From: Comamonadaceae bacterium
GTDB taxonomy: Bacteria; Pseudomonadota; Gammaproteobacteria; Burkholderiales; Burkholderiaceae_C
Reading direction: 5' to 3'
Assembly: GCA_027486755.1 (NCBI GenBank)
Contig: JAIXOM010000041.1
Span: forward strand, 1-64,000
Length of the DNA: 64,000 bases
Of this stretch, positions 20,641 to 22,618 are shown in pieces. How positions within the stretch are numbered: the first letter of the stretch is position 1; every line of letters starts with the position of its first letter. The notes beneath the pieces were generated by a model that did no database searches, was not told where the DNA came from, and saw only the letters and a list, made by a program, of their open reading frames with translations. Made by a program: the position numbers and the translations under genes.

Positions 20641-22416
20641 TCATACGGTCTTGCCCGAGGCTGCCGACCAGGGCTTGACGCTGCCGGGCACGACGCGCGC
20701 GCCCCATTGGCGAACCATATCCTGCACAAAGGGGTCGCCTTCGATGATCTGCTCGGCCTGGCGCTGGCGCTCGGCCTGAGCCGCGGCCACTCGCAAGGCC
20801 TGCGAGTCGCTGACCGGCCCCAGCGTCAGCAGCAAGCGCTCGGGCGCGCCCTCGCCCAAGCCCCGCAGGGCTTGCAGCAATTGATCGCAGGCACCCGCAT
20901 GCTGCAGAGCCTGCTGCTCGACCCGCAGGGTCCAGGCTGCGCCATCAGCAAGCGCCTCCTGAGATACCAACTGAGACTGTAGGGCCAGCTCACGCACCAG
21001 ACCCGCCACGTGATCGCCGGCCAGCAGGCGCTGCACCCAGCCGCCCCAGATCAAGCCCAGCTCGGGCGGGAGCTCACCTGCCGGCGGGTCGGCCGACGCA
21101 GGCACCGGCGACCTTGAAGGCACCGCCGATGGAGTCTGCACTGACGAGGAAGTCGGGGCTGGGCTGCCCGCACGGGCCTCCAGCGGCTGAAGCCGGACTG
21201 CTGTGGTGGCTGTCGACGAGGTCGCCGGCGCCGGCATCTGCAGCGCTGCAGCTTTTGCCGGCTGCGGCGCCGGCTCAGCTTGCGGCTTTTTTAGGGGCGC
21301 GACGGCACCCCCTTGCGCGGCGGACTGTTTGAAAGGCAGCAGACGCAAAAGCACCATGGTCAGCGCCGCATACTCATCGGGCGCCAGGCCCAACTCGGCC
21401 CTGCCATGCAGGCACAGGCTGTAGAGCAACTGGGTCTCATCGGCCGGCAGGGCCTGCGCCAGAGCCGCCAGCCGAACCAGCTCGGGGTCAGCCTCGTCAT
21501 CCCCGCCCACCACCTGCAGCACCGCCATGCGTTGCAGCACCAAAGTCATCTCCTCCAGGGTCGAAGCCGCACTCAGCCCTTGCAGGCGCAGCGCCTCGCA
21601 CAGTTCGACCACCTGCCGACCGTCGCCGCCGGCCAAGGCCTCGATCAGCGCGTACACATGGCCGTGTTCCACCGTGCCCAGCATCTGCCGCACCAGCGCT
21701 TCCTCAAGACGCCCCGCGCCGTAGGCAATGGCCTGGTCGGTCAGCGACAGCGCGTCACGCATAGAACCGCGGGCGGCCCGCGACAGCAGCCGCAAGGCGC
21801 CGGCATCGGCCTCAATCTGCTCGCGTTGCAGCACCTCGCTGAGGTGCTCCACAATGGTCTGCGGCGCCATCGGCCTGAGGTTGAACTGCAGGCAGCGTGA
21901 GAGCACGGTGGCTGGCACCTTCTGCGGATCGGTGGTGGCCAGCACAAACTTGAGGTAGTCGGGCGGCTCCTCCAAGGTCTTGAGCATGGCATTGAAAGCG
22001 GTGTTGGTGAGCATGTGCACTTCGTCGATCATGAAGACCTTGAAGCGCCCCACCACCGGCTTGTAGACCGCCTGCTCGAGCAACTGCGCTATTTCGTCGA
22101 CCCCGCGGTTGGACGCCGCGTCGAGCTCTGTGTAATCGACAAAGCGACCTGCATCAATATCCCTGCAGGCCTCGCAAAGCCCACAAGGCTCAGCGGTGAT
22201 GCCGCCCTGGCCGTCGCTGCCCAGACAGTTGAGCGATTTGGCCAAAATACGCGAAACCGTGGTCTTTCCCACCCCTCGGGTGCCGGTGAAAAGATAGGCA
22301 TGGTGCAGACGCTGGCTCTGCAGCGCATTGCCCAGGGCCTGCACCACATGGGTCTGCCCGACCATCTGCGAGAAATTGCTGGGGCGGTACTTGCGGGCCA
22401 GGACAAGGTAAGACAT
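20641..22416 (-). CDS. dnaX: DNA polymerase III subunits tau and gamma
   Basis: DnaX is the clamp-loader ATPase; tau also couples polymerase and helicase. The 591-residue product starts MSYLVLARKYRPSNFSQMVGQ, with Walker A FTGTRGVGKTTVSR, zinc-module Cys residues (SLNC, CGLCEAC), Walker B FKVFMIDEVHMLT and sensor-1 LATTDPQKVP. A low-complexity linker precedes tau domain V. An in-frame A-AAA-AAG heptamer near codon 377 is followed by a -1 frame stop after three codons, so a ~380-residue gamma form is predicted (see findings). I use the ATG at 22416, not the GTG one codon before it. Confidence 0.96.
   Translation of the reverse strand: MSYLVLARKYRPSNFSQMVGQTHVVQALGNALQSQRLHHAYLFTGTRGVGKTTVSRILAKSLNCLGSDGQGGITAEPCGLCEACRDIDAGRFVDYTELDAASNRGVDEIAQLLEQAVYKPVVGRFKVFMIDEVHMLTNTAFNAMLKTLEEPPDYLKFVLATTDPQKVPATVLSRCLQFNLRPMAPQTIVEHLSEVLQREQIEADAGALRLLSRAARGSMRDALSLTDQAIAYGAGRLEEALVRQMLGTVEHGHVYALIEALAGGDGRQVVELCEALRLQGLSAASTLEEMTLVLQRMAVLQVVGGDDEADPELVRLAALAQALPADETQLLYSLCLHGRAELGLAPDEYAALTMVLLRLLPFKQSAAQGGAVAPLKKPQAEPAPQPAKAAALQMPAPATSSTATTAVRLQPLEARAGSPAPTSSSVQTPSAVPSRSPVPASADPPAGELPPELGLIWGGWVQRLLAGDHVAGLVRELALQSQLVSQEALADGAAWTLRVEQQALQHAGACDQLLQALRGLGEGAPERLLLTLGPVSDSQALRVAAAQAERQRQAEQIIEGDPFVQDMVRQWGARVVPGSVKPWSAASGKTV
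21275..21312 (-). promoter_or_regulatory. Predicted programmed -1 frameshift signal in dnaX
   Basis: The mRNA has an AAGGGGGT Shine-Dalgarno-like stretch, then 14 nt later the heptamer AAAAAAG read as A-AAA-AAG in the tau frame (21292-21286). A shift to -1 reads GCC GCA AGC then TGA (21277-21275). Just after it a GCCGGC/GCCGGC stem with a 6-nt loop can form. This is the layout of the E. coli dnaX signal that makes gamma. Confidence 0.85.
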
Positions 22417-22513: not shown

Positions 22514-22610
22514 GTGACGGGCCTTCCCGCATGGCAAAGCAGCCAACCGGGTCAGGTGGGGAACCAAGCAGCCCTAACTGTGGAGTCAGTGCCGGGGTCA
22601 GGCTCGTCAC
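22514..22610 (+). ncRNA. ffs: 4.5S RNA, signal recognition particle RNA
   Basis: The RNA pairs with Ffh to target nascent membrane proteins to the Sec machinery. The SRP domain IV signature is present: GGTCAGGT, a GGAA tetraloop closed by GG/CC, then AAGCAGCC, matching the E. coli form. The ends pair as GTGACGGGCCT with AGGCTCGTCAC (one G-U), closing a ~97-nt hairpin RNA. A run of six T follows at 22613-22618, giving an intrinsic terminator. It is divergent from dnaX. Ends are judged by pairing only. Confidence 0.93.
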
Positions 22611-22618
22611 CCTTTTTT

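Follow-up and report, generated by a model that had tools for sequence, protein, structure and literature searches.

Ribosomal slippage in dnaX is already known from E. coli, where tau and gamma are both made in a ratio of about 1:1, and a transcriptional alternative is known from Thermus. In E. coli an A_AAA_AAG heptamer follows an upstream SD and precedes a -1 frame stop by a few codons, so that the short product, gamma, ends before the domains found only in tau (PMC5009743). In Thermus thermophilus gamma is likewise derived from the tau reading frame by slippage on an A run, but it is RNA polymerase that slips, and the marks of that system are a run of nine As and stops in both shifted frames (PMC1088944, PMC5009743). 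In published surveys dnaX frameshifting is recorded for enterics, Vibrio and Neisseria (PMC3711429), and a 2012 review states that, enterics and Thermus aside, most bacteria have not kept frameshift signatures in dnaX (PMC3290774). In a search of the main text of openly accessible papers we found no relevant report of dnaX frameshifting in Comamonadaceae, Polaromonas, Rhodoferax or Delftia.

We have examined a dnaX gene within a window of 64,000 nucleotides, from a genome belonging to a Comamonadaceae genus whose named relatives are Polaromonas. The tau reading frame is intact, with Pfam matches to the AAA ATPase, the lid, domain III (residues 238-363) and tau domain V, and is followed by ybaB/ebfC and then recR; upstream, in divergent orientation, is a gene for the bacterial small SRP RNA, the only match in an Rfam scan, which returned no frameshift family within dnaX. 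The original prediction for this gene was a complete -1 frameshift signal giving a gamma of about 380 residues, and its central parts are all present on the minus strand: the in-frame heptamer, the -1 reading GCC GCA AGC TGA, and a predicted product that comes to exactly 380 residues (Table 1). The SD-like sequence AAGGGGGT that it described also exists, slightly outside the range it gave, and ends 14 nt upstream of the heptamer. When the synonymous codons of the window dnaX were permuted, an in-frame A_AAA_AAG arose by chance in 0.46% of 20,000 trials, and one accompanied by a -1 stop within six codons in 0.04%; conservation among relatives, described below, argues against chance much more strongly.

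Table 1. Coordinates of dnaX, the elements of the candidate frameshift signal and the neighboring RNA gene within the window.
Feature	Position	Strand	Evidence or remark
dnaX, tau subunit, 591 aa, ATG start	22416..20641	minus	ORF list and Pfam PF13177, PF22608, PF12169, PF12170
Predicted gamma: 377 shared codons, -1 shift, Ala-Ala-Ser, TGA; 380 aa	21275..22416	minus	Shifted translation and Pfam boundaries
SD-like AAGGGGGT	21314..21307	minus	Duplex energy with 16S tail -14.1 kcal/mol
Spacer GCCGTCGCGCCCCT	21293..21306	minus	First part conserved at the nucleotide level in relatives (GCCGYCGAGCC)
Slippery heptamer A_AAA_AAG, in frame, Lys376-Lys377	21292..21286	minus	48/48 distinct genes
-1 frame stop TGA, after GCC GCA AGC	21277..21275	minus	-1 stop kept in A6 relatives
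Possible downstream stem GCCGGC-GCCGCA-GCCGGC, 11 nt past heptamer	21274..21257	minus	-12.7 kcal/mol folded alone
Bacterial small SRP RNA gene	22516..22611	plus	Rfam RF00169, 62.8 bits

The window gene thus resembles E. coli dnaX in its heptamer, its nearby -1 stop, its upstream SD and a predicted product that ends before the tau-only domains. It differs in that the shift falls at codon 377, 14 residues past the Pfam end of domain III, rather than at about codon 429, and in its place among the betaproteobacteria, where most genera sister to its lineage do not have this form of the signal. From the Thermus arrangement it differs in having six As rather than nine, a near stop in the -1 frame only, and an SD.

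The constraints acting on the element are evident in a set of 48 distinct Polaromonas-type dnaX genes, window included, which are mutually related, so that the counts that follow are not independent events. The lysine pair is encoded AAA AAG in every one, while elsewhere in the same genes AAA makes up 34% of lysine codons. The codon preceding the heptamer ends in A in all 48, although the residue specified may be Pro, Gly, Ala, Glu or Leu, and in these genes most of these amino acids seldom use such xxA codons (11% of Pro codons, 4% of Gly codons). The length of the linker varies among the relatives; the element itself is fixed. A -1 stop occurs within six codons, usually at three, in 100% of the A6 relatives against 20.6% expected, whereas +1 stops occur at the level of chance (10% against 9% expected), a contrast which points to shifting in the -1 direction only. 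The conservation of the heptamer and -1 stop beyond codon need, by which the prediction could be judged, is therefore borne out within the Polaromonas-type genes, where the protein does not explain the constraint; it does not extend to Comamonadaceae generally, since most other genera carry a run of nine As.

The SD is similarly constrained. The codon at this site is GGG, CGG or AGG in 46 of the 48 genes, with the GG kept across Gly/Arg changes, and the region is predicted to pair with the 16S tail at a mean of -9.3 kcal/mol in the relatives, compared with -7.4 in E. coli and -4.1 at random places in the same genes; pairing of -6 kcal/mol or stronger is found in 100% of the A6/7G genes but in only 23% of background positions. 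The aligned spacing to the slip site is nearly constant among relatives at about 15-16 nt, which exceeds the 10 nt that separate AGGGAG from the slip site in E. coli K-12 but falls inside the range of 6-17 nt upstream reported to be stimulatory (PMC4066793). The intervening spacer is itself near-fixed as GCCGYCGAGCC at the nucleotide level in the Polaromonas-type genes, a feature that sets them apart from E. coli, with GCC at codon -5 in 48/48 and nearly fixed third bases at codons -4 and -3. Because of the codon-level invariance, the SD purines, and the -1 stops that are kept while +1 stops are at chance, the nucleotide signal itself is under selection as an E. coli-type -1 element; what weighs most is that -1 stops exceed expectation where +1 stops do not, and that amino acids vary over fixed bases.

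The anatomy and the selection on its nucleotides are shown by these genes, and from them we infer the slippage itself, its efficiency and a function for gamma. In the most probable interpretation, to which we assign a probability of roughly 0.87, the element is a programmed -1 ribosomal frameshift signal giving a short gamma beside tau. The SD-like sequence would pair with the 16S tail while tRNA-Lys occupies AAA-AAG, and some ribosomes would re-pair one base back, read GCC GCA AGC and terminate at TGA to release the 380-residue gamma; those that do not shift would make tau. Such a gamma would retain domains I-III, and with them the entire clamp-loader ATPase, but would lack the helicase- and polymerase-binding regions.

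Frameshifting could be real and yet serve to lower tau output or to limit translation rather than to supply a working gamma, a role favored by the many bacteria that are thought to lack the signal and to live on tau alone (PMC3290774). We consider this unlikely, as the shift always lies directly past domain III, which leaves the clamp-loader ATPase whole in the product, and sister genera appear to reach the same end with a different signal. It is less likely still that gamma arises, as in Thermus, from slippage by RNA polymerase on the A run, with mRNAs that have gained or lost an A being translated normally. The A9 runs with stops in both shifted frames at the corresponding site in sister genera, and the A7G found in a few Polaromonas-type genes, lend some weight to this idea; against it, transcriptional slippage typically involves eight to nine As (PMC3711429, PMC1088944) and there are only six in the window and most of its relatives, the +1 stops are not kept (that of the window is 77 codons away), and a conserved SD would be meaningless for RNA polymerase. 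That the sequence is kept solely for a protein linker motif, G-S-A-A-E-P-x-K-K-P, with no recoding at all, is barely credible, for while Lys-Lys and Ala-x-Glu-Pro are conserved as amino acids too, third bases are fixed over varying amino acids, including the rare xxA codons before the heptamer, and -1 stops occur at five times expectation.

One observation that speaks against ribosomal frameshifting concerns the lysine tRNAs, in that at least 12 Polaromonas-type genomes also carry tRNA-Lys(CUU), whose presence is expected to make slippage on AAG less efficient. According to a 2016 review, the possession of two lysine tRNAs may be the reason why Thermus relies on RNA polymerase slippage (PMC5009743), since tRNA-Lys(CUU) would hold AAG firmly, and the Comamonadaceae constitute a natural test of this suggestion. 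In a census of genomes at least 90% complete, nearly all contain tRNA-Lys(UUU), and tRNA-Lys(CUU) occurs in 12 of 21 A6G genomes, 55 of 75 A9 genomes and 19 of 21 that are free of either signal; the difference between A6G and A9 genomes is not significant (Fisher p 0.18, with kinship uncorrected), making the two-tRNA rule at best a loose one. The content of tRNA-Lys(CUU) is not supported as a clean predictor of mechanism. The SD is of similar strength in A6G genomes with and without tRNA-Lys(CUU). In the window's genome a search allowing three mismatches found no tRNA-Lys(CUU), only the CTTTTAA (UUU) form, so that a single tRNA-Lys would read both AAA and AAG as in the E. coli type, a situation that is not general in the genus.

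The last part of the predicted signal, a GCCGGC/GCCGGC stem, fared less well: its letters are present and contribute to the predicted fold of the window, but conservation of the stem could not be demonstrated, and in this too the Polaromonas-type genes differ from E. coli. Most members have stable predicted hairpins downstream, averaging -14.5 kcal/mol over 40 nt, in a stretch that is 74% G+C, but they are not above GC background and their form is not conserved among relatives. Folding of shuffled sequences gives a mean z of -0.48 at the site against -0.19 in nearby windows; because the proven E. coli stem itself scores near zero (+0.27), and is thus missed as well, this test lacks power.

The wider distribution of these signals was examined by reading dnaX at about 380 loci, some of them duplicates. 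All readable sampled Polaromonas-type genes have A6G or A7G with an SD, and two genomes of another genus in the same family carry an A6G-type element with an almost identical SD and spacer. Neither dnaX (p 0.62) nor rpoB (p 0.46) rejects a single clade of all A6G-type genes, so two separate origins of this form need not be invoked. Nearly all other Comamonadaceae genera sampled, including Rhodoferax, Hydrogenophaga, Ramlibacter, Acidovorax, Limnohabitans, Curvibacter, Delftia, Xylophilus, Extensimonas and unnamed ones, have an A9 run in another phase (127 distinct genes). These A9 genes bear the marks of Thermus dnaX: near stops are present in both shifted frames in 81% of them against 10.4% expected, and their SD pairing is not above background (23% at -6 kcal/mol or stronger, as at background positions). 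By analogy we would expect them to slip at transcription, as Thermus does; alternatively, ribosomes may slip on A_AAA_AAA. Neither signal was found in more than 70 further loci from genera farther out in the same GTDB family, nor in most other Burkholderiales loci.

Judging from these sequence patterns, it is rather probable that one family uses two different machines to make the same short product at the same point of one gene, with slippage by the ribosome in Polaromonas and one further genus (A6G and SD) and by RNA polymerase in most other genera (A9), the level of decoding having been exchanged at least once. FastTree places the A6G genes inside the A9 genes; the better-modelled mixture-model trees do not resolve the deep branches, and we claim no order for the two forms. 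If the two-machine reading is true, the exchange of decoding level with retention of the product would imply lasting selection for gamma. The occurrence of both forms side by side in one family is unreported as far as we have found and is the most interesting part of these observations. A large betaproteobacterial group thus keeps dnaX slippage signatures, in two forms, in contrast to the picture that the 2012 review gives for bacteria other than enterics and Thermus (PMC3290774). This is relevant to the question of how generally gamma is of use, and close relatives are available for comparing ribosomal and transcriptional slippage on one gene.

Several individual loci depart from these patterns. 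In the Comamonadaceae metagenome-assembled genome LJ-3-4m_bin-0927 an A10G run is closely followed by an in-frame stop, such that tau itself would need recoding; this resembles the Chlorobium-type two-ORF layout (PMC3711429), in which an A run is also used and in which tau, rather than gamma as here, is the recoded product, but it may be an assembly indel. At another locus (L248) dnaX is broken at the A run by an N and an early stop, likely a homopolymer assembly error at an A9 site. A genome from another family of the class (G447) has GGGGGG, A_AAA_AAG and a -1 TGA one codon on, apparently an independent E. coli-like element. Finally, A9 or A10 runs lie near the border of dnaX domain III and the tau region at eight loci from families elsewhere in the order or class, a shifted-frame stop often being close by, and dnaX seems to acquire slippage sites repeatedly.
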